Translations under genes and position numbers: made by a program
Source: Campylobacteraceae bacterium
GTDB lineage: Bacteria; Campylobacterota; Campylobacteria; Campylobacterales; Arcobacteraceae
Direction of reading: 5' to 3'
NCBI GenBank assembly: GCA_013373175.1
Contig: JABXII010000009.1
Span: forward strand, 1 to 64,000
DNA: 64,000 bases
In this document: piece by piece, positions 3,532-62,194 of the stretch
Layout: every line of letters begins with the position of its first letter
Numbering within the stretch: position 1 is the stretch's first letter
The notes under the pieces: model-generated
Database searches by the model: none
What the model was told of the DNA's origin: nothing
Seen by the model: the letters and a program-made list of their open reading frames with translations, nothing else

Positions 3532-3559
3532 ACGTTATTAACCTTTTAGGTGTGTTTTC

Positions 3560-4240: not shown

Positions 4241-4266
4241 ATAGATTTTCCTTAGTACGTTTGTAA

Positions 4267-4304
4267 CTTAAATTTAAGTTAAGTTTAAAATTTGGCGTAT
4301 TATA
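4267..4304 (-). promoter_or_regulatory. Promoter of hsrA with candidate HsrA/CosR box
   Basis: On the minus strand a perfect TATAAT lies at 4304-4299, 58 nt upstream of the ATG at 4240. Just downstream, over the expected start site, the plus strand carries TTTAAG (4273-4278), 5 nt, then TTTAAA (4284-4289). This matches the two-half-site TTTAAG-N5-TTTAAG layout I recall for H. pylori HP1043. A perfect palindrome CTTAAATTTAAG (4267-4278) overlaps it. A protein bound here would cover the start site, so autorepression is more likely than activation. Confidence 0.5.
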
Positions 4305-4431
4305 TCATAAGTATAGTAAAAATTAAAGGTTTTTTAAGGTAAATTTCGAAATTTATAAATAGGGTATTAATTAACTTCATGTTAATAAAATGTAGATAAA
4401 ATACTTAAAACTAAAATTATTAAGGAAAATA

Positions 4432-5259: not shown

Positions 5260-5270
5260 GGAGAAAATTA

Positions 5271-6338
5271 GTGGCTGTATTAGATGTTGTAAAACCTGGT
5301 GTATTAAGTGGAAGTGAGGCAAAAAAACTTTTTGCCTATGCAAAGGAAAATAAATTTGCTATTCCTGCTGTAAATGTAGTAGGAACGGATTCTGTAAATG
5401 CAGTTTTAGAAGCTGCAGCAAAAGTTAACTCACCAGTAATTATACAATTTTCAAATGGTGGAGCACAATATTTTGCAGGTAAAGGCCTTAAAACTGCTGA
5501 TGCAGCAGTTTTAGGAGGGGTGAGTGGAGCTATTCATGTTCATACAATGGCGGAAGCTTACGGCATACCAGTTATTTTACATACTGACCATGCTGCAAGA
5601 AAACTTTTACCATGGATTGATGGCTTACTTGATGCTGGTAAAAAACACTTTGAAAAAACTGGAAAACCTTTATATACTTCTCATATGTTAGACCTTTCAG
5701 AAGAGTCTTTAGAAGAGAATATTGGAACTTGTGTTGAGTACTTTAAAACAATGAACGAGCTTGATATGATGATTGAAATTGAGCTTGGAATTACTGGTGG
5801 AGAAGAAGATGGTGTAGATAACACTGATGTTGATAATGCCTTACTTTATACTCAACCAGAAGAAGTATGTTATGCATATGAAGAGTTATCAAAAGTTTCT
5901 GAAAACTTTACAATTGCTGCTTCATTTGGTAACGTTCATGGTGTTTATAAGCCAGGGAATGTTGTACTAAGTCCAAAAATCTTAGATAACTCTCAGAAGT
6001 TTATTGAAGAAAAACACGGTACTGCTACTAAGCCAGTTGACTTTGTATTCCATGGTGGTTCAGGTTCTGCACTTGAAGAGATTAGAGAAGCTATTGAGTA
6101 TGGTGTTATTAAAATGAATATTGACACTGATACACAATGGGCATTCTGGGATGGTGTAAGAGGATTTGAAGCTAAAAATCATGATTACTTACAAGGACAA
6201 ATTGGTAACCCAGATGGGGAAGATAAGCCAAATAAGTCTTATTATGACCCAAGAAAGTGGTTAAGAGCTGGACAAGAGTCTATGATTTCAAGACTTGAAA
6301 CAGCATACTCTGACCTTTGTTCTATTAACAAAAACTAA
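5271..6338 (+). CDS. fbaA: Fructose-bisphosphate aldolase, class II
   Basis: A 355-residue zinc aldolase of the class IIA group. Motifs include VILHTDHAARKLLPW (catalytic Asp and zinc His near residue 105-107), EIELGITGGEEDGVD, NVHGVY (zinc His) and the phosphate-binding FHGGSGS followed by KMNIDTDTQWAF. It interconverts fructose 1,6-bisphosphate with glyceraldehyde 3-phosphate and dihydroxyacetone phosphate; in these bacteria the main role is usually gluconeogenic. The start codon is GTG at 5271, chosen because AAGGAG (5258-5263) lies 7 nt upstream and MAVLDVVKPGV is the usual N-terminus. It is the second gene of the peb4-fbaA unit and ends at a bidirectional terminator. Confidence 0.95.
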   Translation: MAVLDVVKPGVLSGSEAKKLFAYAKENKFAIPAVNVVGTDSVNAVLEAAAKVNSPVIIQFSNGGAQYFAGKGLKTADAAVLGGVSGAIHVHTMAEAYGIPVILHTDHAARKLLPWIDGLLDAGKKHFEKTGKPLYTSHMLDLSEESLEENIGTCVEYFKTMNELDMMIEIELGITGGEEDGVDNTDVDNALLYTQPEEVCYAYEELSKVSENFTIAASFGNVHGVYKPGNVVLSPKILDNSQKFIEEKHGTATKPVDFVFHGGSGSALEEIREAIEYGVIKMNIDTDTQWAFWDGVRGFEAKNHDYLQGQIGNPDGEDKPNKSYYDPRKWLRAGQESMISRLETAYSDLCSINKN

Positions 6339-6340
6339 TT

Positions 6341-6374
6341 TTAAAAAGTGGTAGTTTTAACTATCACTTTTTAA
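6341..6374. terminator. Bidirectional terminator between fbaA and the FIST-system regulator
   Basis: A 14-bp stem with one G-T pair (6343-6356 with 6359-6372) has A-rich left and T-rich right flanks. It sits between two convergent stop codons (6338 and 6381) and can serve both. Confidence 0.8.
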
Positions 6375-6380
6375 CTATCT

Positions 6381-7040
6381 TTATTGTGGTATTTTTATCA
6401 TATAACCACTTCCTCTAATATTTATAATAAAATCTTCTTTTAAGACCTTTTTGATTCTATTAATTTCGGACCTAATAGTGGAAATATCTACTTCATCTCC
6501 TGCATAAGCATACTCTTTAAACATATCATAATCAACTATCAAACTTCTATTTTTTGCTAAGACTTCAATTATTTTTATCTGTCTTCTAGGCAAGATATGA
6601 GGTTCGTTATTAAAATATAAAGTTAAACCTTCACAATCAAAACTATATGATTTTGATAACCTTTTATGTTGTGTTGGAGTAATTTGATTTTTAAGAAGCC
6701 TATTAATTCTAATTGTTAGTTCTTTTAGATGAAAGGGTTTTTTTAGATAATCATAACATCCAATATCAAAAGCTCTTGAAATATCTTCTATATCTATAAG
6801 TGCAGAGATATAAATAGTAGGAATATCTCTTTTTTGTTTATGTAAAGTCTCTAAAATAGTAAATCCATCTATATCTGGAACATTTATATCTAAAATTAAA
6901 AGATCAAACTCCTGCGCTTTTAATAGATTTAAACACTCACTTCCTGTACGAGTACTTTTTATTAAGTGTCCAGTAGATGTTAGGTATTCATCTATCATTT
7001 CATTTAGCATAAAATCATCTTCAAGTAGAAGTATTTTCAT
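6381..7040 (-). CDS. OmpR-type response regulator of the FIST kinase
   Basis: A 219-residue regulator: receiver domain with D51 (LLILDINVPDIDG) and Lys in YLKKPF, then a winged-helix domain from about residue 130 (RRQIKIIEVLAKNRS ... IRSEINRIKKVL ... GSGYMIKIP). The start at 7040 is preferred over longer in-frame possibilities because MKILLLEDD is the normal receiver N-terminus and AAGGAT lies 8 nt upstream. It overlaps the last 20 nt of the kinase gene, so the pair is translationally coupled. Its targets are unknown; the divergent aldehyde dehydrogenase, with an 11-bp direct repeat at its promoter, is a reasonable candidate. Confidence 0.82.
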   Translation of the reverse strand: MKILLLEDDFMLNEMIDEYLTSTGHLIKSTRTGSECLNLLKAQEFDLLILDINVPDIDGFTILETLHKQKRDIPTIYISALIDIEDISRAFDIGCYDYLKKPFHLKELTIRINRLLKNQITPTQHKRLSKSYSFDCEGLTLYFNNEPHILPRRQIKIIEVLAKNRSLIVDYDMFKEYAYAGDEVDISTIRSEINRIKKVLKEDFIINIRGSGYMIKIPQ

Positions 7041-8949
7041 TTTTTGTATCCTTAAAAGTATAGATAAAAGATGCGAACTTTTCATTTGACTCAAGCTCTA
7101 TTTCTACATCTTCTTCTTCGCAAATTCTTCTTACTAAATTTAATCCTAATCCAAAACCATTTTGTGTAGTTTGTTCTCTATAATATTCTTCAAATATTTT
7201 TCTTTTGTCTAATATCTGTTTAGAAACACTAGTTATATTTAAAATAGTATCTGAGGATATCTTTTCTATAGTTATATCGATTAAGTTTTTTGGTAAAGTA
7301 TATTTAATTGCATTTGTTAGATTATTATCAACTATTCTTTGAAGCTTTGTTTCATCAAAAAAAACATAAATCTCTTCTTGTGAAGTTTTAAAATTAAAAT
7401 CAAGCTTTGCTTTTTTTGCAATAAGAGAAAAAAACTCAATTCTACTTCTTACAAAATCGACAAGATTTATTTGATGTTTAACTCTATGAATATGGTCTTT
7501 TCTTATTAGATAACTTAAATCATCATAGATATTGAAAAGTGTTTTCATAGCTATTTCAATATTTGAGATATATTTGTTTTTCCCATGTTCCATTTTATAC
7601 ATATCAATATTACCCATAATCACTGACAAAGGAGTGTTTGTCTCATGTACAGAGTATTTTAAAAACTGTTTTTGTAAGTTTAAAAGTTGTTCTGAATATA
7701 AAGTTTTCTCTTCTAGTTTTTCTGATTGTTCATTATAATCTTTTGCTGATTGTTGAATTAAGTGTGTTAATGCTTGCAAACTTCTTGCGTGTTCGCTTAT
7801 TTGGTTTTCTTCTTTTTTAGGAAGAGTCTTAGTTTTACCATTATGTTCTTTTTCACTTAAAGCTACAACTGTAAGTGTTTGGTTTAAAAACTGATTTGAG
7901 TTTTTTTCTTTGTTATGATAAAACTCCCCATAAGTAAAGAACCCAGCAGTAGGAGCAATTTTAGAAAAAGGTTCAATCTCTAAATCAATAATATTAGGCA
8001 TATATCTTCTTCTGGCCATACAAGAATAAATGAAAAAACTTTCTGTTTTATTCATATTATCTGTTTTAAATAAAGACTTTAAAGGATTATTCATGATAAG
8101 TTCTATATTTCCAAAACCTAATTTAACCTTATCACCTTTTAAAAGATTTCCTGCAAAACTTAAACTTCCATCATCATACTTTTTTATAACTGCCCTTGCA
8201 AGAGAAATACCATTTCTTTTGACAATCAAGGGAAACTCAATTCCAGTTGCAGGCAAAGACTTAGCAACATAATCCCCTAAATATTTTTCATAAAAATCTA
8301 AAGACTTAAGTCCAGAGATTTTGTATACTCGATTATCTTTTACTTCATCAATCACATGTGTAATTCCAATAGCAGACCAATTGAAGTTAAATGCAGTCTT
8401 TACATCTAAAACTTTAGAGTTTAAAGATACTGCAATTGCACCACTTGAATAAATTTCATTATTTATTGCAATAAAGGTTTGAGTAAAACTTGCATTATCT
8501 CCTGCCATTCCACCACAAATTGGTACCTTATTATTAACTGTTTCAATACCTTTTAAAAACTCTTCTCCATTTGTTTTTTCTCCATCAGTAAAGCAAATAA
8601 GAAGTTTAGTATCTTCTTTTATTAATGTTTTCGCTACTTTTATGCCATTTTCAAAACTTGTATTTTCATCAAAATATTTTGCTTCAAAAGTAGTATTTTC
8701 AAAGGTCGATATGCTAATTACGGTATTTAAAGTGGAAACACTATTTTCAAAAATTTCTCCATCTGTTGAAGAAGCTATGCACACACTTTGGGGTAACTCT
8801 TTTTTTAAAGTATTTAGTATAGTTTGTAAATTGTTTCTGTTTTCTCCACAAAAAACTTGAATAAGTATGTTTTTATGGGACTTTAACTCATTAAAATTGA
8901 TTGAATCATGAAGTTGATTATTTTTAATAATAAAATTAAATGTTTTCAT
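7021..8949 (-). CDS. FIST-domain sensor histidine kinase
   Basis: A 642-residue soluble kinase. Residues about 25-190 form a FIST_N domain and about 200-375 a FIST_C domain; FIST is a cytoplasmic sensor predicted to bind small molecules such as amino acids. A coiled coil (about 385-430) leads to a phosphoacceptor region, YSVHETNTPLSVIMGNIDMY, in which VHETNTPL replaces the usual HELRTPL. The ATPase domain keeps the N box (DNNLTNAIKYT) and G2 box (GFGLGLNL), but the usual DxGxG G1 box is absent (SVSKQILDKRKIFEEYY), so catalysis may be weak or atypical. No membrane segment is seen. The ATG has no RBS and lies 8 nt from an extended -10, suggesting a leaderless mRNA. Confidence 0.82.
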   Translation of the reverse strand: MKTFNFIIKNNQLHDSINFNELKSHKNILIQVFCGENRNNLQTILNTLKKELPQSVCIASSTDGEIFENSVSTLNTVISISTFENTTFEAKYFDENTSFENGIKVAKTLIKEDTKLLICFTDGEKTNGEEFLKGIETVNNKVPICGGMAGDNASFTQTFIAINNEIYSSGAIAVSLNSKVLDVKTAFNFNWSAIGITHVIDEVKDNRVYKISGLKSLDFYEKYLGDYVAKSLPATGIEFPLIVKRNGISLARAVIKKYDDGSLSFAGNLLKGDKVKLGFGNIELIMNNPLKSLFKTDNMNKTESFFIYSCMARRRYMPNIIDLEIEPFSKIAPTAGFFTYGEFYHNKEKNSNQFLNQTLTVVALSEKEHNGKTKTLPKKEENQISEHARSLQALTHLIQQSAKDYNEQSEKLEEKTLYSEQLLNLQKQFLKYSVHETNTPLSVIMGNIDMYKMEHGKNKYISNIEIAMKTLFNIYDDLSYLIRKDHIHRVKHQINLVDFVRSRIEFFSLIAKKAKLDFNFKTSQEEIYVFFDETKLQRIVDNNLTNAIKYTLPKNLIDITIEKISSDTILNITSVSKQILDKRKIFEEYYREQTTQNGFGLGLNLVRRICEEEDVEIELESNEKFASFIYTFKDTKNENTST

Positions 8950-50000: not shown

Positions 50001-50033
50001 TGCAAGTTTCATGACAGACTTATTTTTTATAAT
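50001..50033 (+). promoter_or_regulatory. Predicted TctD box 1 and promoter of usp-tctD-tctE
   Basis: TGCAAG (50001-50006), TTTCA, TGACAG (50012-50017), then 10 nt, then TATAAT (50028-50033). The half-sites are 11 bp apart. The same layout occurs at four other places in the cluster. The transcript would begin near 50040, 25 nt before the usp start. Confidence 0.7.
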
Positions 50034-50063
50034 TTCAGAATATATCTTTAAAAAGGATTACTT

Positions 50064-50912
50064 ATGAAATACAAAAAACTATTTTTCCCTATTGGTGGTG
50101 GAGATGAATTAGAAGAGAGACTTTTTGCCGCTTTCTTGATTGCGAAACATTTTAATGTTAGTCTTGAAGTTTTAAAATGTGGACTAAAAACAAATATGAG
50201 TATCTACAAAGCACTATCAATACCTAAAGATATTATGAAAAAGATTGATGAAGTAGTTGATACGAAACTAGATGATGAGAATCATCAGATGCATGAATTA
50301 TTTGAAAAAATAGCAGCTGAGGTTGGTATTAAGGTTTCCGAAAAAACTCTTGAAAATGAAGCAAATACTTTTTTAAATATAAAAGAAGGTTTGCGAAGCT
50401 CCCTAGTCGAACAAGAGTCAAAGTTTTGTGATTTGGTTATAGCAGCAGCTCCTCCTTCTGGTGTTACAACTGCAACTTTTGAAACGGCAGTATTAAAAAG
50501 TGGAAAATCTGTACTTATGTTTCCTAGAATAATGAGAAATTTTAAAACGGACTCAATCATTATTGGATGGAACAATTCTCCTGAAGCATCTCGTGCTGTT
50601 ACTTCATCAATTGAAATTTTAAAACAAGCTCAAAGAGTACATATAGTCTCTTCAGAAGAGTACACTGATGATTTAGAAAAAATGAATAGATTAAGAGAAT
50701 ATCTTTCATATCATGGAATTGATGCTAGTTATGAGATTGTTAAAACAACAAGAATTCCAGGACAAGCTCTTCTAAATGCAGCATTAGATGGAAATTTTGA
50801 TTTAATTGTTGCTGGTTCTTATGGACATAGAGGCTTAAAAGAGCTTATGTTTGGTGGTGCCACAAGATATTTATTAGAGAAATCAACACTTCCTATATTT
50901 ATGTCTCATTAA
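50064..50912 (+). CDS. Tandem universal stress protein
   Basis: A 282-residue cytoplasmic protein with two USP folds (about 1-150 and 155-282). The second carries the ATP-binding signature G-X2-G-X9-G in GSYGHRGLKELMFGGATRYLL (read as GSYGHRG and MFGGATRYLL). The first repeat is degenerate. It is the first gene of the unit with tctD and tctE, behind TctD box 1. Its link to carboxylate use is unclear; it may be a stress or energy-status protein co-induced with the pathway. Confidence 0.8.
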   Translation: MKYKKLFFPIGGGDELEERLFAAFLIAKHFNVSLEVLKCGLKTNMSIYKALSIPKDIMKKIDEVVDTKLDDENHQMHELFEKIAAEVGIKVSEKTLENEANTFLNIKEGLRSSLVEQESKFCDLVIAAAPPSGVTTATFETAVLKSGKSVLMFPRIMRNFKTDSIIIGWNNSPEASRAVTSSIEILKQAQRVHIVSSEEYTDDLEKMNRLREYLSYHGIDASYEIVKTTRIPGQALLNAALDGNFDLIVAGSYGHRGLKELMFGGATRYLLEKSTLPIFMSH

Positions 50913-50916
50913 TTTA

Positions 50917-50931
50917 TGGTAGAATTTACTT
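50917..50931 (+). promoter_or_regulatory. Internal leaderless promoter of tctD
   Basis: TGG-TAGAAT (50917-50925), an extended -10, is 6 nt before the ATG at 50932, with no RBS between. It would give tctD-tctE constitutive expression independent of the box upstream of usp. Confidence 0.55.
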
Positions 50932-51588
50932 ATGAAACTATTAATCCTTGAAGACAATGAAACCTTAGCAGATGGTATTTATAAAAAACTAAAAGAGATG
51001 GGCTATATTGCAGATGTTTTTTATGAGGGAGAAGAAGGACTTTTCGCTTTAGAGACATCTACTTATGATCTTCTTATTTTAGATTTAGGTCTTCCTGGAA
51101 TTGATGGAATTGATATTATAACAAAACTACGTAATTCTAAAAAAAATCTTCCTATTTTAGTTATATCTGCAAGGGATAGATTAGATCAAAGAATCTTAGG
51201 CTTAGAAACTGGTGCTGATGATTATATCTGTAAGCCTTTTGAACTTGATGAAGTTGTAGCAAGAGTACAAGCTCTTCTTAGACGAAGTCATAATCAAACT
51301 TCAAATATCATAAAATATAATAACTTAGAGTTTAATTCTAAAACTTTAACTTTGACAAGAGATGAAGAGAAAATCGAATTAAGTAAAAGAGAACTAACAA
51401 TATTTAAATATCTACTTTTAAATCTAAATGCAATAGTAAGTAAAGATAATATAGTAGAACATATAACTTCCATAGATGATGAATTTAACCCAACTGCTGT
51501 TGAAACTTATGTCTCAAGACTTAGAAAAAAACTAGGAGATTCTATAAATTTAAAAACAGTTAGAGGCTTAGGTTACATGATGAGTTAA
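50932..51588 (+). CDS. tctD: TctD-type response regulator
   Basis: A 218-residue OmpR/PhoB-family regulator. The receiver has E7-D8, D51 (YDLLILDLGLPGIDG) and Lys in YICKPF. The winged helix (about 125-216) includes LSKRELTIFKYLLLN, NPTAVETYVSRLRKKL and TVRGLGYMM. With the TctE-type kinase it should sense tricarboxylates and activate the adjacent uptake genes. The 11-bp direct repeats upstream of five nearby units are its best candidate binding sites. Confidence 0.83.
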   Translation: MKLLILEDNETLADGIYKKLKEMGYIADVFYEGEEGLFALETSTYDLLILDLGLPGIDGIDIITKLRNSKKNLPILVISARDRLDQRILGLETGADDYICKPFELDEVVARVQALLRRSHNQTSNIIKYNNLEFNSKTLTLTRDEEKIELSKRELTIFKYLLLNLNAIVSKDNIVEHITSIDDEFNPTAVETYVSRLRKKLGDSINLKTVRGLGYMMS

Positions 51589-51589
51589 C

Positions 51590-52969
51590 ATGGAGGCAAC
51601 TACTAAATCTATTAAATCTAACCTTATAGCTTGGCTAACTTTCCCCTTAATTATTTTTACAATGATTCTTTTTGTTTATATATATTTTGTTTTAGAAAAA
51701 AAAGTTACTAACTTTTTTGACAATAGATTAAAAGCAAGTGCTAAAAGTATTGAATATAGTATTGGAATAAAGAACTCAAAACTTTTTGTTGATATACCTA
51801 GTTTTTCAATTGAACTACTCTCTTCAAATGATAAAGGTTTGATTTTTTATTCTGTAGTTGATGAAGAAAATAGACTTCTTGTTGGATATGAATCTTTATT
51901 AAATAAAAGAAGACTAGTTGATGAAGAAGCTATATTTTATAATACAGAATATAATGACTATAATTTAAGAATTGTTTCTTACAAAACTTCCCTTTATAGT
52001 GCAGGAAAAGCCTATAATGCTTATATCACTTTAGGTGAAACCACAGAAGAAAGAGATGAAAATATAAAATATGTATTAAGTTTGCTTCTAATAATAATGG
52101 TAATTGTAATAGTCTCAACTGTATTAATAACTCTAGTTGCAGTCTCTGAAGGTTTAAAACCACTTGATAGATTAAAAAGAATCATAAAAAAAAGAGATGA
52201 AAGGGATTTAGAACCACTCTTTTTTAATGCTCCTAAGGAGGTTGAAGATATTGTAAAAAGTATCAATATTTTATTAGAAAGAAGTAGGGAAACTATTGAT
52301 TATATAGAACAATTTAACTCTGATGTATCTCATCAATTAAGAACTCCTCTTGCAGAGATGAAAGTAAAACTAGAGTTCTTATATGATAAAGATGATAAAA
52401 ATTATATCGCTTTAAACTCTCTTTTAAATAATATGTCACATATAACTGAACAGCTTCTTTTATATGCAAAAACAAATCCAAATACTATAAATCTAAAACG
52501 ATTTAAAAAACAAAGTCTAAATGCAATTTGCAAAGATTATAGTTTAAAAGCAGCTCCAAGAGTATATAAAAAAGGTTTTGAGTTTGCATTTGAAAATATT
52601 GAAGAAGAGGTTTTTATTCAATGTGATCAAATTCTTCTTGAAAGCATGCTAGATAATATAATAAACAATGCTTTACACTATGCAGTTGATGAAAATGGTA
52701 AGCCTATGGGAACAATTACAATATCTTTAGAAAGACACAATAATGCTATTTGGTTGAATGTAAAAGATGAAGGAAAGGGAGTAGATAAAAAGCTTTTAAA
52801 AACCATCTTTGATAGATACTATAGAGTTGATTCTAAAAAAAGTGGTTCAGGTCTAGGACTTAGTATTGTAAAGCAAATTGCCACACTACATAATGCAAAG
52901 GTTCAAGCAATAAATGAAAATGGATTAAAAATATCTTTAATCTTTGATATCCCAAAACATCAAAACTAA
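51590..52969 (+). CDS. tctE: TctE-type sensor histidine kinase
   Basis: A 459-residue membrane kinase: TM1 at about 15-37, periplasmic sensor about 40-155, TM2 about 160-185, HAMP, then the phosphoacceptor SDVSHQLRTPLAEMKVK (His about 246). The N box is NIINNALHYA, G1 is VKDEGKGVD and G2 is GSGLGLSIVKQIA. The layout fits the TctE/2CSK_N group that monitors external tri- or dicarboxylates. It begins 1 nt after tctD. It overlaps the convergent tctC2 stop by 4 nt. Confidence 0.83.
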   Translation: MEATTKSIKSNLIAWLTFPLIIFTMILFVYIYFVLEKKVTNFFDNRLKASAKSIEYSIGIKNSKLFVDIPSFSIELLSSNDKGLIFYSVVDEENRLLVGYESLLNKRRLVDEEAIFYNTEYNDYNLRIVSYKTSLYSAGKAYNAYITLGETTEERDENIKYVLSLLLIIMVIVIVSTVLITLVAVSEGLKPLDRLKRIIKKRDERDLEPLFFNAPKEVEDIVKSINILLERSRETIDYIEQFNSDVSHQLRTPLAEMKVKLEFLYDKDDKNYIALNSLLNNMSHITEQLLLYAKTNPNTINLKRFKKQSLNAICKDYSLKAAPRVYKKGFEFAFENIEEEVFIQCDQILLESMLDNIINNALHYAVDENGKPMGTITISLERHNNAIWLNVKDEGKGVDKKLLKTIFDRYYRVDSKKSGSGLGLSIVKQIATLHNAKVQAINENGLKISLIFDIPKHQN

Positions 52970-53928
52970 TCTTTTATTAAATAGTTGTATTTTTCAAAGT
53001 CTTCAAATGAGTTTTTTAAAATTCTTGTAGAGTTTTGTGTACCTATCCAAGTGTAACCAATATTTTTTCTTTTTAAATATCTATGTACAGATCTTTTTGC
53101 AAGTGTTTTTTGAATTGCTTTTTTTAGGGTTTTAAATCTATGGGGAAAATCTTCTTTAAATTTTCTTGAAACTGCAATTCCTCTTATTGGTCCATGGATA
53201 ATTGGCATTGTAATGCCTGTATCTTTTATTGTTTCATTCAAGGTTGGAGCATCCCATCTTTTAGAAGGTTTACTTGATACTATAGCAAGTGGTTTTATAT
53301 CTTCTCTATACTTTTCACTTCCTTGAGCTGCAATAATAAGAAGGTCAACTCTTGATTCAAGTAGTGCTTCTCTTGCACTTCCTCCTCCACTATAAAGTCT
53401 TATATCAACATCTTTAGAAGGGATATCAAACTTTTCTAGTAATAGTTTAAAAAGGATATGTCCACTTGATCTATTTATTAATGCTACTTTTAACTTTTTT
53501 GGATTCTTTTTTATATAGTTTAAAACTTCAATTACTGAGTTAAACTTGGAGTCTTTTTTAACTGCAATAAAATCTTGTTCAAACCATTGAAGATTTATTA
53601 TTACAAAATCATTTAGTGAAAAACCTGCTTTTTCACTTATTATTAAATTTATTAGGTATGGAGAAAAAGTAGAACAAAAAACCTTATACCCATCATGGGG
53701 TTCTTTTAAAATATAATTAGCTGCATCTAAAGAGCCATTTGTTTTTATAGTTTTAACACTTGTATATACTCCTAGTTCTGCTTGAAGGAGGGCTGCCATA
53801 TTTCTTGCCATTCTATCAGCACTTCCTCCTTCTCCTAGTCCAACTACAAATTCAATTGGTTTATTTGGATAATCAAGTGAAAAAAGTAAACTCTTTAATA
53901 AAATAAAAAATAAAAAGATATATCTCAT
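52966..53928 (-). CDS. TctC/Bug-family solute-binding protein 2
   Basis: A 320-residue periplasmic protein with a signal peptide of about 17 residues. The Bug fold motifs are present: YPNKPIEFVVGLGEGGSADRMARNMA, read as PIEFVVGLGEGGSADR; NYILKEPHDGYKVFCST; and a typical SGGGSAREALLESRVDLLI. It is the last gene of the tctAB-prpF-tauE unit and converges on tctE. In Bordetella a TctC-type protein (BctC) also contacts its sensor kinase, so this second copy may act in sensing; that is inference. It is clearly different from the TctC at 59.1-60.1 kb. Confidence 0.78.
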   Translation of the reverse strand: MRYIFLFFILLKSLLFSLDYPNKPIEFVVGLGEGGSADRMARNMAALLQAELGVYTSVKTIKTNGSLDAANYILKEPHDGYKVFCSTFSPYLINLIISEKAGFSLNDFVIINLQWFEQDFIAVKKDSKFNSVIEVLNYIKKNPKKLKVALINRSSGHILFKLLLEKFDIPSKDVDIRLYSGGGSAREALLESRVDLLIIAAQGSEKYREDIKPLAIVSSKPSKRWDAPTLNETIKDTGITMPIIHGPIRGIAVSRKFKEDFPHRFKTLKKAIQKTLAKRSVHRYLKRKNIGYTWIGTQNSTRILKNSFEDFEKYNYLIKD

Positions 53929-53937
53929 ATTAAAACC

Positions 53938-54687
53938 TTACATTAAAACAATTCCATCATAAATTAATTTACTTCCTAGTATAAGTATAACAACTTTTAA
54001 AATCTTTTTAAATAGTTTATTACTACTTTTATCAAGAAGTTTTTTACCTGCAAGTGTACCTAGATATGAAAATAGGATTAATAGAAAAATTAAAAATATC
54101 CAAGGAGTATAATCAAATCCTAAGCCACCAAAAATTACAGCTTTACCAAGGTTTTGAAAAGATACACACCAAGCAAGAGTACCAACTATTAGATGTCTCT
54201 TTGTTAAAATTGAAGATAAAAAAATTGCTATTAATGGTCCCATAACACCAACAAACATTGTTAGGAATCCAGTTATTATACCAAAAATCACAATTAGAAA
54301 ATCAGATACTTTTTTAAATTTTAAATTAGGAAGTAGGTTTAATACAATAATTCCTATTCCCAAAGAAAGTTTCAGGACATAATCTGGCAAAGATATTAAA
54401 AAGTAGATACTTAAAATATATCCAATAATACTTCCTACCATAAAAAGCAGAAAAAATCTTACTAAATAAGATTTTCTGAAAAGAAAAGCTCGTAAAAGCC
54501 CTGAGCCTGATTGCGTAAGTGCATGAATAGAAAGAAGTGCCGTAGGAGGAAGAATCATACTCATTCCTCCAATTACTAAAAGACCTCCCCCAGAACCAAC
54601 AGTTGTTGATATTGCTGCTCCAATAAAACAACAAATTATTAATATAGATATATCAAAAAGTTCTAGAGGAAGATAAAAAAAGTCCAT
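53938..54687 (-). CDS. TauE/SafE (TSUP) family membrane transporter
   Basis: A 249-residue protein with about seven TM helices. The family pattern CFIGAAISTTVGSGGGLLVI (about 15-34) and the second repeat LTMFVGVMGPLIAIFLSSIL are present. TSUP members export sulfite, sulfoacetate or small carboxylates, so it may remove a product of the pathway. The start at 54687 follows directly after the prpF stop (TAAC-ATG); an in-frame GTG at 54705 lies inside prpF. Substrate unknown. Confidence 0.72.
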   Translation of the reverse strand: MDFFYLPLELFDISILIICCFIGAAISTTVGSGGGLLVIGGMSMILPPTALLSIHALTQSGSGLLRAFLFRKSYLVRFFLLFMVGSIIGYILSIYFLISLPDYVLKLSLGIGIIVLNLLPNLKFKKVSDFLIVIFGIITGFLTMFVGVMGPLIAIFLSSILTKRHLIVGTLAWCVSFQNLGKAVIFGGLGFDYTPWIFLIFLLILFSYLGTLAGKKLLDKSSNKLFKKILKVVILILGSKLIYDGIVLM

Positions 54688-54688
54688 G

Positions 54689-55759
54689 TTATACAAAAAC
54701 TTCACCGGCCATTAAAAGTCTGGCCGTTCTTGTTGTTTTCCCTTCTACATCTTTTATATTTGTCGTAGGAAAGTTTACTCCAACTTCGATTGTTCCTGAA
54801 GGTGTTTCTATTTTCACAGTATGTTCTCCTATTTCTAACTCTTTAGAATTTAGTTCATGTATAATAGTTCCTTTTACAAAAGAAGCAGCTGCTACGCAAA
54901 AACCTGCACTAACTGCAAGAGCTGGGTGAGCAGATTTAGGAGTAAAGTATCTAATGTTTATATCCCCATCATTTTTTGCCTCTGAAATAACTGCAAATTT
55001 TGGAATTACATTTCCTTTAGCACTACCTAATCCCATCTTTTTTGAAGCTTCTTCTCTAATTGATTCTATTTTTTCAAAAAGTTCTTTTTTTGCATCAAGT
55101 TCAGCTGGAGTTTCATATCCTGTTAACCCCATATCCTTTGCTTTTACAAAAACAACCGGCATAGAGATATCTAAACAAGTGGCTTTAACACCATCAAAAA
55201 TATCATATTTGTTTCCTGTAGGAAGATAGTGTCCTGTTTTCCCACCAGTTATATTTTTAAAAAACATTTTTATAGGAGAAGCTTTTCCAGGAACTCCAGC
55301 TATCTCAAAGTCACCATGATATTGAACTGTTCTATTTGGAGTTTTGATTACTTGAGTGATAGTTGCACCAGTATTTACGTCATAAACATTTACTGTAGTT
55401 TCACCATCTTCAACTGATACTAAACCTCTTTCAATACCAAAAGCTCCTACTGCAGTAAGAATATTACCGCAAGTAGGTTTATCATCAGCTGTTGCTTCAT
55501 CTATACTTGGTTGAATAAATTTATAATCTAAATCTATTCCTTCTCTTTTTGATACTGAGATTACTGCAACTTTTGTTGTAACAGAAGTTGCGCCACCTAT
55601 CCCATCAATTTGTCTAATATCAGGACTTCCCATAATTTTTAAAATTAAAGCATGTCTTTCTTCTTTATCTTTAGGTAAATCATTATCTAAAAAATATGCC
55701 CCTTTTGAAGTTCCTGATCTATATAAAATACAGTTAATTCTTTTTAAATCATTCATCAT
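54689..55759 (-). CDS. PrpF-family isomerase (aconitate / 4-oxalomesaconate type)
   Basis: A 356-residue enzyme with the diaminopimelate-epimerase fold of the PrpF family. Motifs: LYRSGTSKGAYFL at the N-terminus, DGIGGATSVTTKVAVIS, ADDKPTCGNILTAVG (active-site Cys) and SAHPALAVSAGFCVAA. Members include PrpF (2-methylaconitate and trans/cis-aconitate isomerisation) and GalD (4-oxalomesaconate tautomerase of gallate degradation). Both act on unsaturated tricarboxylates, fitting a TTT transport cluster. The RBS AGGAG overlaps the tctAB end. Which substrate applies is open. Confidence 0.82.
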   Translation of the reverse strand: MMNDLKRINCILYRSGTSKGAYFLDNDLPKDKEERHALILKIMGSPDIRQIDGIGGATSVTTKVAVISVSKREGIDLDYKFIQPSIDEATADDKPTCGNILTAVGAFGIERGLVSVEDGETTVNVYDVNTGATITQVIKTPNRTVQYHGDFEIAGVPGKASPIKMFFKNITGGKTGHYLPTGNKYDIFDGVKATCLDISMPVVFVKAKDMGLTGYETPAELDAKKELFEKIESIREEASKKMGLGSAKGNVIPKFAVISEAKNDGDINIRYFTPKSAHPALAVSAGFCVAAASFVKGTIIHELNSKELEIGEHTVKIETPSGTIEVGVNFPTTNIKDVEGKTTRTARLLMAGEVFV

Positions 55760-55760
55760 T

Positions 55761-57752
55761 TTATGCTCCTGTTATTGCATCATAAATTAAACCTGTTGGA
55801 AGGTGAAGTGTCATAATGTGGCTTATGAATAGTAGGAAACCTATTGCTATAGAAGTAATAATAAATATCTTCAACCAAGAACTTTTCATTTTTGTTCTAA
55901 TTATTATCACAAAAAGAATTGCTAATGAAGGAACAAAACCTAAAATCCAAGTTCCTAATAGGAAAATAGGAAGAATTAAAAAGTTTTTCCAAATACTAAC
56001 CCATGTAGATGTAAGCTGTCCATTTTCAGTAACTGCAACGGCTAAAACATCTTTTTGTTTCTTTTTAGATGTAATTTGAATTGATAATAACACTCCAAAA
56101 ACTAGAAGTAATGAACTTATTACCATAGGGAAAATTCCACCTAAGAATTGCAGGTCATACGAGTCAATTAAAGCAAATAGACCAAATGCCATAAGAAGCC
56201 AAATAAATAGTAATTCTCCTGTAAAGAATGAATATGAATGATCTATTGTTTCTTCTTCTTTTTGTGGATTTTCTTCTTTCTGTTTTTTAGAGTCTTTATT
56301 TTTAAAATAAACACTAATTAAAATAGATGAAACTAAGAATATTAATAAGATGATTACCCCTGGTCTTTCCATCATTTCCCAAGAGTAAAATTGAACTGCT
56401 TGATAATAATATGTTTCAATAGTTCCAGCTAATACAAATCCAATAAGTAATGCAGGTCTTGGCCAATCAAAATATTTAAATAATGTTCCTAGTGCACCAA
56501 TTGCAATTAAAAGCATTAAATCTTCTAAAGATCTTGTTGCTTGAAGTGCTGCAAAGAAAATAATCATTAACATAAACGGTGCAACATATCCATAAGGAAT
56601 AGTTGTGATTTTTGAAATCTTATTTGATAAAAGCATACACGTTCCAGTACCAACAACATTTGCAAGTGCTAAAGACCAAATAATAATATATGAAACTTCT
56701 AAGTTTTCATTAATCATTCCAGGACCAGGCTCAATTCCAAGAATTACAAGTCCTCCTAAGAATACAGCCATAGAACCACTTCCAGGGATACCAAATAAAA
56801 GTGTTGGAACTAATCCTCCACCTTCTTTTGCATTATTAGCTGATTCAGGAGCAATAACTCCTCTTACATCACCTTTACCAAACTGTGATTTGTCTTTTGA
56901 AGTTTGTACAACATGACCATAAGCAATCCAGTCAACAACACTTCCTCCAAGACCAGGAATAGCCCCAATCATAGCCCCAATTGGAGCACAACGAGCTACT
57001 ATCCATCTTGAAACCCACATATCTTTTATACCTTGAACAAAACTTCCTCCAAGCTTTTCAGCTTTTGAAATCTTTTTATTCTCAACTAATAAAGAGATAA
57101 TTTCAGGAACTGCATAAACCCCAAGTCCTAAAATTACAAGTTTAATTCCATCGTATAAATAGTAACTATCCATTGTCATTCTAAATTCACCAGTTGCTGG
57201 TGCTGAACCAATAGAGCCTAAAAGTAGTCCAATTGCAGCAGCTATAAATCCTTTGTATAAAGATTTACCACTTAAAACTCCAACCATACTAAGTCCAAAA
57301 ATACCTAAAATAAATAGCTCAGCAGAACCAAGTTTTAAAATTAAATCTCTTGCAAAAATTATGAATGCTGATAAAATTAAAGCGCCTAAAAGACCTCCTA
57401 CTAATGAAGCAGAAAATGCAGCTCCAAGTGCTCTTGCTGCCTCACCTTTTTTTGACATTGGGTATCCATCAAGAACTGTTGCTTGAGAAGCAGAAGAACC
57501 TGGAATTCCCATAAGAACTGAAGTAAAAGTATCCGAAGTTGGAATAACTGCAACCATACCAATTAGCATTGCTAGTGCTGAAGTTTGATCCATACCATAA
57601 AGAAAAGGTAACATTATAGAAAAACCTACAATACCTCCTAATCCTGGTAAAATACCAACTAAAATTCCTAAAAACACTCCACCAAGTAGATAGATCATAT
57701 GCTGAACTTGCATTAATTCAGTAAATGCACTCATAAGTGTTTCAAAAGCCAT
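55761..57752 (-). CDS. tctA: TctA-TctB fusion, permease of a tripartite tricarboxylate transporter
   Basis: A 663-residue membrane protein. Residues 1-495 are TctA (large permease), with the signatures GILVGILPGLGGIVGFSIMLP, MGIPGSSASQATVLDGYPM, IGAIPGLGGSVVDWIAYGHV and APESANNAKEGGGLVPTL. A charged linker (about 490-515, KNKDSKKQKEENPQKEEE) joins a TctB-like small subunit of four TM helices (about 520-660). Most TTT systems encode TctA and TctB separately. It uses the ion gradient and a TctC protein to import carboxylates. First gene of its operon, directly behind TctD box 2. Confidence 0.88.
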   Translation of the reverse strand: MAFETLMSAFTELMQVQHMIYLLGGVFLGILVGILPGLGGIVGFSIMLPFLYGMDQTSALAMLIGMVAVIPTSDTFTSVLMGIPGSSASQATVLDGYPMSKKGEAARALGAAFSASLVGGLLGALILSAFIIFARDLILKLGSAELFILGIFGLSMVGVLSGKSLYKGFIAAAIGLLLGSIGSAPATGEFRMTMDSYYLYDGIKLVILGLGVYAVPEIISLLVENKKISKAEKLGGSFVQGIKDMWVSRWIVARCAPIGAMIGAIPGLGGSVVDWIAYGHVVQTSKDKSQFGKGDVRGVIAPESANNAKEGGGLVPTLLFGIPGSGSMAVFLGGLVILGIEPGPGMINENLEVSYIIIWSLALANVVGTGTCMLLSNKISKITTIPYGYVAPFMLMIIFFAALQATRSLEDLMLLIAIGALGTLFKYFDWPRPALLIGFVLAGTIETYYYQAVQFYSWEMMERPGVIILLIFLVSSILISVYFKNKDSKKQKEENPQKEEETIDHSYSFFTGELLFIWLLMAFGLFALIDSYDLQFLGGIFPMVISSLLLVFGVLLSIQITSKKKQKDVLAVAVTENGQLTSTWVSIWKNFLILPIFLLGTWILGFVPSLAILFVIIIRTKMKSSWLKIFIITSIAIGFLLFISHIMTLHLPTGLIYDAITGA

Positions 57753-57798
57753 CTTAAATCCTTTCTCGAAGTACTATTACTTCTCATTTTATGAAAGA

Positions 57799-57831
57799 AG
57801 ATTAACATTCTACGCTGGCACGAAACTTGCA
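57799..57831 (-). promoter_or_regulatory. Predicted TctD box 2 and promoter of tctAB-prpF-tauE-tctC2
   Basis: On the minus strand: TGCAAG (57831-57826), TTTCG, TGCCAG (57820-57815), 10 nt, TAATCT (57804-57799). The start site should be near 57792, 40 nt before the tctA ATG. The complement also resembles a sigma-54 promoter pointing the other way; see the rejected list. Confidence 0.7.
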
Positions 57832-57870
57832 TTTTTTGTAAAAGTTATATTAAAAATCTGTGAAAATAAA

Positions 57871-57902
57871 AAAAGCTATCTTGCAGAACAAGACAGCTTT
57901 TT
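57871..57902 (-). terminator. Terminator of the tctC-hydrolase unit
   Basis: Stem 57871-57883 with 57889-57901, one mismatch, loop CAGAA. On the minus strand it is followed by a long T-rich run. It starts about 21 nt after the hydrolase stop. Confidence 0.8.
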
Positions 57903-57922
57903 AATGGAAGAATATTGAAAAG

Positions 57923-59038
57923 TTATTTTATATTTTTATTAAGCCAATTATCGATAAATTTAGCAATCTCTAGATTGTTTTTTTCAAGCATAAGCATATG
58001 CCCATTACCTTTTATATTTACATCTTCAAGTCTTACTAAATCATTTTTTACCCCTGCTTGTGTAAGCCAATTAGAAGTACAATGATCATAGGGTGCATGG
58101 TATGATGATTCACTAACTAAAAACAATATGTTTTTATCTTTCAAGTTTACAAGTTGTTTTGCAGGTTCTTTTTGTTTCCAACATTTAACTAAGTTTGTTC
58201 CTTGCGCTTTAGTCTCTTGTACAACTTCTAACTGCTTTGCACTAGCAATAGCTGGTTCATATGTCATAGGTACAACTGATACTCCCCATGTCATACTTTT
58301 TTTACCTTTTTTATTCTTAATTGGTGGTCCACTTGGTTCTATAGTTACAATACCTTTAACAAGATCTGGTCTTGCATCAGTAATAAGCCACCCAAAAGGT
58401 CCCGATTGAGAGTGGGTAATTAAAATAGCTGGTCCTATTTTATCTAGTAATGCAACTCCTGCATTTTTTACTAAATTACTACTTTCTACATGTGATTTTA
58501 CAGATTCAACTTGACTTGCATAAAATTGGTCAAAAGTCTCATCACCTTGTCTTCCTGTACCTGGCCATTGATTATGTTTATAAGCTTGAGGCCATTGGTT
58601 TTTAAACTGTTCAGCCGCTGTAAACTTTTTTTCTAAAATTTCAGCATTAAACATTCTAAACTCTTTATTGATTTTAGGATGCCAAGCTGATCTACCTCGT
58701 GAAGGTTGGTCAACCATATATACAACATAACCATTTTTTACAAAATAATTAGCCCAACCTGGTCTACCATCTGGTGTTGTAATCCAATTTACTGCTGTTT
58801 GGGCTGCTCCATGGATTAGAACAAGTGGGTATTTATGTTTTATCTCTTTTGGTGTCCATTTTTCAACATACATTTGCTCAGACATCAAAGTTTTATCTTT
58901 GCTTTGTTTAATATATTTTCCACCTACATAAAAGACTTCACTTTTATAATGCAAAAAAGAATAATTATCCTCTTTTGCATTTACTTGAGTAGCCAAAAAA
59001 ATGATGCTTAATGTTAATATTAGTTTATTATAAAACAT
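57923..59038 (-). CDS. Exported alpha/beta hydrolase (esterase)
   Basis: A 371-residue protein with a signal peptide (MFYNKLILTLSIIFLATQVN, cleavage near NAKED). The fold motifs are LVLIHGAAQTAVNW (oxyanion region), VDQPSRGRS, the nucleophile elbow THSQSGPFGW (Ser between Gln and His-type positions) and the catalytic His in GNGHMLMLE. It should act in the periplasm on an ester or lactone. It is 13 nt after tctC and shares its TctD box, which links it to supply of the transported carboxylate, for example by cleaving an ester before uptake. That role is inferred. Confidence 0.75.
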   Translation of the reverse strand: MFYNKLILTLSIIFLATQVNAKEDNYSFLHYKSEVFYVGGKYIKQSKDKTLMSEQMYVEKWTPKEIKHKYPLVLIHGAAQTAVNWITTPDGRPGWANYFVKNGYVVYMVDQPSRGRSAWHPKINKEFRMFNAEILEKKFTAAEQFKNQWPQAYKHNQWPGTGRQGDETFDQFYASQVESVKSHVESSNLVKNAGVALLDKIGPAILITHSQSGPFGWLITDARPDLVKGIVTIEPSGPPIKNKKGKKSMTWGVSVVPMTYEPAIASAKQLEVVQETKAQGTNLVKCWKQKEPAKQLVNLKDKNILFLVSESSYHAPYDHCTSNWLTQAGVKNDLVRLEDVNIKGNGHMLMLEKNNLEIAKFIDNWLNKNIK

Positions 59039-59051
59039 AATATGTTACTTA

Positions 59052-60131
59052 CTAGAATCTTACTCTATAATTATCAGTTAGCCAGTTTCTAATCCATTTT
59101 CTATCTTCGTTATTTACCTTTGTAGCAGTTGATTTAAGAGTTTCTGCTTTTTCTCCAACTGTTTGAGGATAAATACCAAGTTGTTGCTCACTCATTGCTT
59201 TAAATTTTGGGTCTGAAACAATCTTTTTCATAGCATTTTGGTAAGTTTCAATAACATCACTTGATACTTCTTTTGGTAACATAATCATTTTTTGAGATGG
59301 GAATGAAGCTGTAAATAATGTTTTCCATGCTTTAAATGCCGCACCTGATGGTTTTTTACCATGTACTTTTTCATATACTTCACCAAAATGTGGTAGATTT
59401 GGGAAAGTTGGGTCTCTTTGGAAATCACCATTATCATCTAATGTTCCCCATGCAAATAAAGGAACAGCTCTACCTTCTTTTTGTGCTGGTAATACATTTT
59501 TAATATAAGAAGAAGTTGTTTGGAAATCAATATTAGTTTCACCTCTTAAAAATGCAAGTCTTGTTGATTTTTTACCTTTCATACCAAATACAGCTTTAGT
59601 TTCGATATCTAATAAATCAAATGCTAATAATGCAACTAAATCCATAGATGTTGCACCTTGTGATCCAAACTTTAATTCTTGAGATTTAAGCTTATCTAAA
59701 TCATCAATACTATTAACTCCAAGTTTAGATGATACATAAACAACTCCTCCTGTAGGTGAAGAGATTACTGCTTTCCAGTTTTTATAATCATATCTTACTC
59801 TTTTATCTCCAAGTAAAAATGGAATTTGAGTTGAAGCAGATGAAGCAAAAATTGTTAAACCATCTTTTGAAGCTCTTTTTGCAAAAAAGTTTGCACCTTT
59901 AGTTGATCCACCACCTGGCATATTCTTGATTACTACAGTTGGTTGTCCTGGAAGGTTTTTAGAAATTAAAGGAGCATAAAATCTACTCCATTTATCAGTT
60001 CCTCCTCCAGCTTTATAAGGAACTATCCATTCAATAGTTTTCCCTTTAAAACTAACTTCTTTTGCAGTTGCAATATTTACTAGCATCCCTAGTGCTAAAG
60101 TTGAAGTTAAAATTGTCTTTGCCATTTTCAT
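59052..60131 (-). CDS. tctC: TctC/Bug-family solute-binding protein 1
   Basis: A 359-residue periplasmic binding protein with a signal peptide ending near ATAKE. The N-terminal motif KTIEWIVPYKAGGGTDKWSR, then VVIKNMPGGGSTKGANFF and LGVNSIDDLDKLKSQELKFG, show the Bug fold, though it is longer than usual (about 320). It should deliver the substrate to the TctAB permease. First gene of the unit with the exported hydrolase, behind TctD box 3. RBS AAAGGAT precedes the ATG. Confidence 0.85.
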   Translation of the reverse strand: MKMAKTILTSTLALGMLVNIATAKEVSFKGKTIEWIVPYKAGGGTDKWSRFYAPLISKNLPGQPTVVIKNMPGGGSTKGANFFAKRASKDGLTIFASSASTQIPFLLGDKRVRYDYKNWKAVISSPTGGVVYVSSKLGVNSIDDLDKLKSQELKFGSQGATSMDLVALLAFDLLDIETKAVFGMKGKKSTRLAFLRGETNIDFQTTSSYIKNVLPAQKEGRAVPLFAWGTLDDNGDFQRDPTFPNLPHFGEVYEKVHGKKPSGAAFKAWKTLFTASFPSQKMIMLPKEVSSDVIETYQNAMKKIVSDPKFKAMSEQQLGIYPQTVGEKAETLKSTATKVNNEDRKWIRNWLTDNYRVRF

Positions 60132-60161
60132 GTGAAATCCTTTATTTGGTTTTATGGTGGA

Positions 60162-60194
60162 AGATTAACATTGGTTTCTGGCATGAACCTTGCA
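60162..60194 (-). promoter_or_regulatory. Predicted TctD box 3 and promoter of tctC-hydrolase
   Basis: On the minus strand: TGCAAG (60194-60189), GTTCA, TGCCAG (60183-60178), 10 nt, TAATCT (60167-60162). The start site should be about 24 nt before the tctC ATG. Confidence 0.7.
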
Positions 60195-60256
60195 GAATTG
60201 CAAGTTTTATATAGAGATTTGAAATGCTATTTTATTGCTATGTTTAGGGCTTTTTT

Positions 60257-60289
60257 TGCAAGATTATTGACAGAATCCAATGTTAATAT
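60257..60289 (+). promoter_or_regulatory. Predicted TctD box 4 and promoter of the porin
   Basis: TGCAAG (60257-60262), ATTAT, TGACAG (60268-60273), 10 nt, TAATAT (60284-60289). It points toward the porin at 60350. A partial half-site TGCAAG-N5-TATAGA lies upstream at 60199-60215. Boxes 3 and 4 therefore face away from each other in the 218-nt gap, which holds no real gene. Confidence 0.7.
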
Positions 60290-60349
60290 GCCCCATGAAT
60301 TTTATTTAGTTACTGCTGGATAAAAAATCTATACATAAAAGGAATAAAA

Positions 60350-61567
60350 ATGGGGAAATTACAAAAAAGAAGCCTTATTGCTGCATTTTTAATAGTATCA
60401 ACAGGTTCACAAGTTTTAGCATCTGATTCAATTGTAGATGCTTTTGCAAATGGAAAAACGAAAGGTGAATTAAAATCATTCTATTTTGATGAATCTTATG
60501 ATTCTGCTAAATCATCAGACAATCATGTTTGGGCAAATGGAATAAAGTTAGGATATGAAACTGATAGATATTTAGGTTTTAAATTAGGAGCAACATTTCA
60601 AGGAGCATCTACTACATCTATAGATGATGAAAAAGATAAACAGAAAAAGACAATGAATGCTTCAGGATCTGTTTTATCAGAAGCTTTTGTAAGTTATAAA
60701 TATAGTAATACAGAGTTTAAAGGTGGTAGACAATTTATCTCTTTACCTTTAATAAAAGGTTCTGGTTCAAGACTTGTAAAAGAGTCTTTTGAAGGATATT
60801 TCTTATCTAACACAGATATTCCTGATACACTTGTTTCTTTAGGAAAAATTACTAAATATCAAACAAGAACAGATGCAGTTACATCAACAACTAATGCAGC
60901 ATCATTTACAAACTCAGATTCAAATATTGGTGATGTAGGTGAGTTTAATAAAATTGGAACTGATGGGGCGGTTTCTTTATATATTAAGAATAAATCAATT
61001 GATAACTTAACTATTCAAACTCATTATGTTGATTTTATTGATGAAGTAGTTGACCTTTATGTAGATGCTAAATATGGCTTTGGTGGTGACTTTAAACCAT
61101 ATATCGCAGCACAATATTATAACTCAAATTATGATGATAATGCAATTGAAGATAGTCATATGACAGGGTATAAAGTAGGTGCAACATTTGGTGGATATAA
61201 TTTACATGTTTCATATACTTCAACAGATAATGATGGAAATGTAACTAGAGGTATAGGTGAGGGTGCAACAGCATCATTTACATCTGCAACATCAACTACA
61301 GGAAACTATACAGCAGGAACTGATACATGGCAAGTGGGAGTTTCTAAGAAATTTGGAAACTTATTAGCAAAAGCAAAATATACAAGTAGTGATGCAGTAG
61401 CAGAAAAGAATGACTTAGACCAAATATATTTAGGATTAAAATATAAATTCTCTGGTGAACTTAAAAACCTTTCTTTATCAACAGAATACACTATCTATGA
61501 CTATGGACAAGGTAATGAAGCGAAAGAGAAAGATGAATTAAGAGCTAAATTAATTTATAAATTCTAA
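60350..61567 (+). CDS. Outer-membrane porin (OprD-like)
   Basis: A 405-residue protein with a signal peptide (cleavage near QVLAS). The mature start DSIVDAFANGKTKGELKSFYF resembles OprD-family porins of Campylobacterota. The rest is alternating hydrophobic beta strands and it ends in a Phe after charged residues (AKLIYKF), as outer-membrane barrels do. OprD-type channels admit small organic acids and basic amino acids. Behind TctD box 4, it is the likely outer-membrane entry route for the substrate. Followed by a terminator. Confidence 0.78.
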   Translation: MGKLQKRSLIAAFLIVSTGSQVLASDSIVDAFANGKTKGELKSFYFDESYDSAKSSDNHVWANGIKLGYETDRYLGFKLGATFQGASTTSIDDEKDKQKKTMNASGSVLSEAFVSYKYSNTEFKGGRQFISLPLIKGSGSRLVKESFEGYFLSNTDIPDTLVSLGKITKYQTRTDAVTSTTNAASFTNSDSNIGDVGEFNKIGTDGAVSLYIKNKSIDNLTIQTHYVDFIDEVVDLYVDAKYGFGGDFKPYIAAQYYNSNYDDNAIEDSHMTGYKVGATFGGYNLHVSYTSTDNDGNVTRGIGEGATASFTSATSTTGNYTAGTDTWQVGVSKKFGNLLAKAKYTSSDAVAEKNDLDQIYLGLKYKFSGELKNLSLSTEYTIYDYGQGNEAKEKDELRAKLIYKF

Positions 61568-61606
61568 TCCTTTTCTTCTAAATCAGAAACTAAATACGCG
61601 CGAACA

Positions 61607-61636
61607 AAAAAAAAGGAGGTAAAACTCCTTTTTTTA
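61607..61636 (+). terminator. Terminator of the porin gene
   Basis: GGAG/CTCC (61615-61618 with 61625-61628), extended by A-tract/T-tract pairing, with loop GTAAAA and a T run. Confidence 0.8.
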
Positions 61637-61651
61637 CTCTTAATCTATAAT

Positions 61652-61684
61652 TGCCAGTTTTATGCCAGCTAAATAAACTACCAT
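61652..61684 (+). promoter_or_regulatory. Predicted TctD box 5 and promoter of the rraA-like gene
   Basis: TGCCAG (61652-61657), TTTTA, TGCCAG (61663-61668; the two half-sites are identical), 10 nt, TACCAT (61679-61684). The weakest -10 of the five, as expected for a strongly activator-dependent promoter. Confidence 0.6.
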
Positions 61685-61708
61685 TCGAAAAAATTAAAAA
61701 GGACGAAT

Positions 61709-62194
61709 ATGAGAAAATATAGAACAGCTGATCTTTGTGATGAAAATCAAGATAAAAAAATCCAAGTATTATCCTCTAGTTTTAAAAACTATGGAGGGAA
61801 AAAAAGGTTTAAAGGAAAAATAACAACTGTTAAAATTGAAAAAAGTAATTGGGCAGTAATTGATATATTAAAAAATGAATCAGGTAAAAATAAAATTCTA
61901 GTTGTAGATGCACAAGAAGTTCATTATGGAATTATTGGAGACAAATTATCTAATCTTGCAGAAAAAAATGAATATGAAGCCATAATAGTAAATGGATATG
62001 TTAGAGATACAATGGAAACAGAAAAATTTAATATTGGACTTTTTGCCCTTGGTACTTGTCCTTTAAGAAATTTTGATAAAACACCATCTCAAGTAGGAAT
62101 TGATTTATACTTTGGAAATGTCTCTTTCAAAGAAGATGATTATATATATTGTGATGAAGATGGAATTATTGTTTCAAATGAAAGGCTTATGTAA
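61709..62194 (+). CDS. RraA-family protein, probable oxo-acid aldolase/decarboxylase
   Basis: A 161-residue protein aligned over its length with E. coli RraA (TADLCDENQDKKIQVLSSSF, ILVVDAQEVHYGIIGDKLSNLA). E. coli RraA has Gln after the conserved Arg, but here the pair is R99-D100 (NGYVRDTME) with G77-D78, the residues used by 4-hydroxy-4-methyl-2-oxoglutarate / 4-carboxy-4-hydroxy-2-oxoadipate aldolases, which also decarboxylate oxaloacetate. Together with a PrpF/GalD-type isomerase and TTT transport, an enzymatic role is more likely than RNase E inhibition. It is behind TctD box 5. RBS AAGGA precedes the ATG. Confidence 0.75.
   Translation: MRKYRTADLCDENQDKKIQVLSSSFKNYGGKKRFKGKITTVKIEKSNWAVIDILKNESGKNKILVVDAQEVHYGIIGDKLSNLAEKNEYEAIIVNGYVRDTMETEKFNIGLFALGTCPLRNFDKTPSQVGIDLYFGNVSFKEDDYIYCDEDGIIVSNERLM

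Follow-up and report, generated by a model that had tools for sequence, protein, structure and literature searches.

Five promoter boxes predicted to be operators of a TctD-like response regulator in a carboxylate gene cluster of Arcobacteraceae

The window analysed here is a 64,000-nucleotide stretch of an Arcobacteraceae genome (assembly GCA_013373175.1, contig JABXII010000009.1, positions 1 to 64,000). It contains an 11-gene cluster that spans 12 kb (50001-62194) and is arranged in five transcription units, in the order usp-tctD-tctE (plus strand), tctAB-prpF-tauE-tctC2 (minus strand), tctC1-esterase (minus strand), an OprD-type porin gene (plus strand) and an rraA-like gene (plus strand). 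The genes are as follows:

50064-50912, plus strand: universal stress protein (Usp) gene, first in the regulator operon (Pfam PF00582)
50932-51588, plus strand: TctD-like OmpR/PhoB response regulator, the proposed binding protein of the promoter boxes described below (Response_reg and Trans_reg_C domains; co-occurrence with the box)
51590-52969, plus strand: TctE-like sensor histidine kinase (2CSK_N, HisKA and HATPase_c domains)
52966-53928, minus strand: TctC-family solute-binding protein, tctC2 (Pfam TctC)
53938-54705, minus strand: TauE/SafE permease (Pfam TauE)
54689-55759, minus strand: PrpF-family isomerase, nearest to YbhH / 4-oxalomesaconate tautomerase (Pfam PrpF; PDB 6otv)
55761-57752, minus strand: TctA permease (Pfam TctA) whose C-terminal domain resembles TctB (residues 519-652; a weak Pfam match, under the curated cut-off)
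57923-59038, minus strand: alpha/beta-hydrolase, carboxylesterase 1QLW-like
59052-60131, minus strand: TctC-like solute-binding protein, tctC1 (weak Pfam TctC, under the curated cut-off)
60350-61567, plus strand: OprD-family outer-membrane porin (Pfam OprD)
61709-62194, plus strand: RraA/aldolase-family protein (Pfam RraA-like; NCBIfam RraA)

The PrpF-family isomerase scored 419 bits against NCBIfam OMA_tautomer, just under the cut-off of 440, and TctA and TctB may be joined in the single protein encoded at 55761-57752. The kinase gene and tctC2, with which the opposing operon ends, share four bases at their stop codons (52966-52969).

The first-pass annotation of this DNA had assigned a TctD regulator and its kinase to the cluster. 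The family assignment held, as the regulator carries both domains of an OmpR/PhoB-type protein (Pfam Response_reg, 3.5e-25; Trans_reg_C, 1.6e-17) and is encoded next to a kinase with a 2CSK_N domain (PF08521), in a cluster with TctA and TctC family proteins, which is a TctD/TctE context. The name itself derives from this context: against the NCBIfam TctD equivalog the regulator reached 182 bits where the cut-off is 337, and "TctD-like" is therefore the accurate description. In a phylogenetic tree the Campylobacterota regulators grouped with those of Halomonas (support 91/82), while Pseudomonas TctD fell in a poorly resolved part. Two more response regulator/kinase pairs, with 24-31% identity, lie near the beginning of the window (2281-7875).

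Each transcription unit of the cluster is preceded by one intergenic box that matches TGCMAG-N5-TGMCAG, followed by 10 bp and a -10 hexamer:

50001-50033, plus strand: box 1, TGCAAGTTTCATGACAG, 10 bp, -10 TATAAT; predicted promoter of usp-tctD-tctE (autoregulation), kept in 16 orthologous promoters
57799-57831, minus strand: box 2, TGCAAGTTTCGTGCCAG, 10 bp, -10 TAATCT; predicted promoter of tctAB-prpF-tauE-tctC2, kept upstream of tctAB in relatives
60162-60194, minus strand: box 3, TGCAAGGTTCATGCCAG, 10 bp, -10 TAATCT; predicted promoter of tctC1-esterase
60257-60289, plus strand: box 4, TGCAAGATTATTGACAG, 10 bp, -10 TAATAT; predicted promoter of the OprD-type porin gene
61652-61684, plus strand: box 5, TGCCAGTTTTATGCCAG, 10 bp, -10 TACCAT; predicted promoter of the rraA-like gene, kept at rraA in relatives even where the gene is inverted

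All five sites reported by the first-pass annotation were recovered at their positions and strands, and in each of them the second half-site is separated from TANNNT by exactly 10 bp; together they cover all five units as had been claimed. Their description as identical layouts is right for the spacing, while the half-sites and -10 hexamers vary. Box 5 diverges most, with TGCCAG as its first half-site; in a set of 51 boxes all the other 50 have TGCAAG. In the whole 2.76-Mb assembly the exact TGCMAG-N5-TGMCAG pattern occurred only at these five sites, with 22 further matches at one mismatch. The spacing had been judged hard to explain by chance, and a Poisson estimate agrees: 24 bare 17-mers in 87 family genomes that lack the regulator give an expectation of 0.0014 in 12.2 kb, so that five would arise with a probability of about 5e-17.

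TANNNT stood at offset 10 in 51/51 boxes; the remaining offsets between 4 and 17 had it in 0 to 8 of 51. Comparison across relatives sharpened the consensus to TGCAAG-nTTnn-TGMCAG (mostly TGACAG), with the TT of the five-base spacer invariant; about ten bases follow, often ending in ATGT, and a TG usually precedes the -10. Among 16 orthologous regulator promoters the half-sites were 98% conserved and the -10 91%, compared with roughly 56% for the flanks and the gap. If the -10 is taken as -12 to -7, the half-sites lie at about -39/-34 and -28/-23, and where a -35 hexamer would be expected the sequence is that of the first half-site and the spacer instead of TTGACA. Every in-cluster box has the PhoB/OmpR-type layout that had been proposed for it, an 11-bp direct repeat replacing the -35 with the -10 ten bases further on. 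Campylobacter sigma70 promoters rely on an extended -10 and show no clear -35 (PMC3656092); the TG before the -10 in these boxes resembles that extended element.

In 104 Arcobacteraceae genomes we looked for the bare box, for the regulator protein and for the full pattern, in which the box is followed after 10 bp by TANNNT. A regulator orthologue (at least 69% identity) was found in 17/104. The full pattern gave 52 matches in 14 genomes, all of them among the 17 orthologue carriers, and 50 of the 52 lay inside the regulator's cluster. It was absent from all 87 family genomes without an orthologue (Fisher 8.6e-15, although the genomes are related rather than independent, and the seven genera that make up the 14 positive genomes are nearer to the effective number of observations). 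A -10 was correctly placed behind 52/54 bare boxes in regulator-bearing genomes versus 0/24 in other family genomes. Among 399 genomes of the order, which include a sample of Arcobacteraceae, only seven contained the full pattern. Both scans proposed by the first-pass annotation, of the assembly and of related genomes, thus came out clearly in its favour, with the pattern enriched only at clusters that have this regulator.

A few genomes depart from this pairing. G069, G076 and G086 have the orthologue without an exact full pattern and carry variants with one or two mismatches at the same spacing; in G069 a one-mismatch box lies upstream of a DctP gene. The sole exact full-pattern site of G087 is found near a paralogue of 58% identity instead of near the orthologue. 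The two exact sites outside tctD clusters (G041 C69 and G087 C6, at L169 8660 and L168 11506) are both upstream of an ABC binding protein resembling those of putative aminoethylphosphonate transporters. Other candidates were set aside: full-pattern matches in G104 and G188, from other families, looked like chance and had neither a TctD-like regulator nor the cluster's Tct genes nearby, and a box on contig 8 of G042 had no -10 and no cluster genes in its vicinity.

Rearranged clusters in relatives show what the boxes follow. Where rraA is inverted (L155, L156, L159) the box is inverted along with it, and where tctC2 (L153-L156) or the esterase gene (L152) is detached, it has its own box each time. 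In G032 and G033 the boxes stand ahead of a different TctC/TctA set, and one box more than usual is present in G019 and in G021. In nearly every cluster the regulator operon is preceded by a box of its own, in exact or variant form. Since the boxes stay with their transcription units when these are inverted, split or have genes exchanged, their common factor is the regulator and not one gene family. In G019 the extra box belongs to a methyl-accepting chemotaxis receptor gene (L155 3291-5645), which suggests that the regulator may there also control chemotaxis towards the substrate.

Related regulators come with related boxes. A paralogue (64-65% identity; G055, G092 and G093) is accompanied by TGTCAG-N5-TGCCAG with the same 10-bp gap, and a search of the 104 genomes found this sequence six times, two per genome, in exactly the three paralogue carriers. 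G055 contains both regulator systems side by side, each with its own boxes. Orthologues in family f20 (G324, G405) have TGCAAG-N5-TGCAAG, and in G086 and G087 TGAAAG-N5-TGACAG lies ahead of the regulator operon. Halomonas regulators (48-50% identity) are encoded close to TGCAAGGTTGGTGACAG, which has TAGCGT at +10 and precedes a TctC gene by about 200 bp; the pattern was found in 14/61 Halomonas-group genomes. In Pseudomonas, TGAAAG-N5-YGAAAG-N10-TANNNT occurred in 46/50 genomes, usually once, and adjoined tctD in 19/20 loci checked; it presumably corresponds to the motif published for P. aeruginosa TctD. No such box was found near proteobacterial regulators at 33-40% identity, Pseudomonas TctD excepted.

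Taken together, the results make it highly probable that the TctD-like regulator encoded in the cluster (50932-51588) has the five sites as its operators, through which it would activate its own operon and the four other units. The regulator is put forward as the box binder because box and orthologue co-occur almost perfectly across genomes; we infer its binding and activation from these patterns, and activation, as opposed to repression, is an assumption drawn from promoter geometry. In the proposed mechanism, the TctE-like kinase would sense the substrate, leading to phosphorylation of the TctD-like regulator, a dimer of which would bind head to tail to the half-site pair, whose 11-bp period places both sites on the same helix face. 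Occupying the place of the -35, the bound regulator would recruit sigma70 RNA polymerase to the -10. Activation of usp-tctD-tctE would constitute positive feedback, and the further targets would be the units for the TctAB permease, PrpF, TauE and second binding protein, for TctC and the esterase, for the OprD porin, and for the RraA-like aldolase.

We consider it improbable that the same regulator binds the boxes mainly as a repressor, with derepression on substrate, in place of class II activation. There is precedent, as P. aeruginosa TctD is reported to oppose PhoB at shared promoters (PMC4513871). Against this, the boxes lie in the -35 zone, have no -35 hexamer and keep the 10-bp gap at all in-cluster sites; so strictly fixed a gap is expected of an activator in contact with sigma, while a repressor would tolerate variable spacing.

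It also appears quite unlikely that a different OmpR/PhoB-family regulator, encoded elsewhere, binds the boxes while the cluster's regulator acts on other targets. The layout by itself is common in the OmpR/PhoB family, the pho box being one case (PMC4971064), and the genome encodes several other members (seven matches at E <= 1e-30). However, genomes that lack the orthologue lack the box as well, even though OmpR/PhoB regulators match in 100/104 genomes; moreover, it stands at the TctD-like regulator's own promoter, and the paralogue comes with a distinct box. Descent without selection, in which the five sites would be leftovers of promoter duplication within one cluster, is very unlikely: boxes 2, 3 and 4 do share AATGTTAAT around the -10, but in 16 genomes the half-sites remained 98% conserved where majority identity in the flanks had fallen to about 56%, and paralogous and Pseudomonas promoters place other half-sites at the same positions. 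That a reader merely picked a chance pattern by eye, as repeated words can be found in 64 kb, has a negligible probability given the Poisson estimate and the independent confirmation in genomes outside the first-pass annotation.

Control of tct genes by TctD is already known in Pseudomonas; the predicted Arcobacteraceae regulon would be a new case of it. The first-pass annotation knew of no TctD box in Campylobacterota, and our literature search likewise found no paper with TctD and Arcobacter together. For P. aeruginosa, a study that combined expression profiling with a motif search of promoters is reported to have located such a motif at both tctD and opdH-tctCBA (PMC4513871). As that study describes it, the system is similar to ours in having an OmpR/PhoB regulator beside TctABC and OprD-type porin genes, and a motif at both the regulator's own promoter and that of the transporter (PMC4513871). 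The Pseudomonas half-sites are TGAAAG, compared with TGCAAG/TGACAG here, and there is usually one match per genome as against five separate units. The same report has TctD repressing some genes, PhoB targets among them (PMC4513871). The E. coli pho box lies near the -10 and usually substitutes for the -35, and it too is a head-to-tail repeat with a period of about 11 bp (PMC4971064). PhoB differs in half-site sequence, signal and regulon, whereas here all five genomic sites lie in one cluster with an invariant 10-bp gap.

What raises the interest of the system is how cleanly regulator and box vary together, between lineages as well as between duplicates, and the analysis yields a predicted DNA code for an Arcobacteraceae two-component regulator with its regulon marked gene by gene. 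Lineages of equal geometry with unlike half-sites (TGCAAG/TGACAG, TGTCAG/TGCCAG, TGCAAG/TGCAAG, TGAAAG/TGACAG and TGAAAG/YGAAAG) form a natural series on how duplicated response regulators gain separate DNA specificities. The residue of the recognition helix aligned to PhoB Val197 is Thr with TGC or TGT and Ile with TGA, a link drawn post hoc; G041 looks intermediate, having Ile with both TGC and TGA boxes. We tentatively suggest, as a possibility somewhat short of an even chance, that TctD-like regulators of Campylobacterota and Gammaproteobacteria might share one rigid grammar (11-bp repeat, 10-bp gap, -10), in which half-sites drift by lineage and the third base follows the recognition-helix residue, insulating duplicated systems. 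If true, a few residue and base changes would keep duplicated systems in one genome apart, even side by side as in G055. The recognition helix was rejected as the only cause of every box variant, as G086/G087 and G041 share Ile yet have different boxes.

A tricarboxylate of the aconitate/tricarballylate type is the probable substrate, because in relatives clusters with the same box carry the tricarballylate dehydrogenase TcuA (655 bits against a cut-off of 369) and TcuB (371 bits against 246.6), and because the window encodes the PrpF/oxalomesaconate-tautomerase-like isomerase together with TctA and TctC proteins. On this basis, genes with poor annotation (those for the esterase, the PrpF-like isomerase, the RraA-like aldolase, the chemoreceptor and TauE) would be grouped in one programme of tricarboxylate use. 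TcuA and TcuB are also part of Salmonella tcuRABC (tricarballylate utilisation), from which the window's cluster differs in lacking TcuAB, in its TctABC-like transport and in its two-component control rather than only a LysR regulator. The TcuA/TcuB pairs lie inside the clusters at L152 4633-7114, L159 10328-12809 and L161 8644-11131, adjoining a divergent LysR regulator in L152 and L159. The window's cluster, which has no TcuA/TcuB, contains an esterase gene, as does that of G063 (L152); our guess is that the esterase frees the acid from esters.
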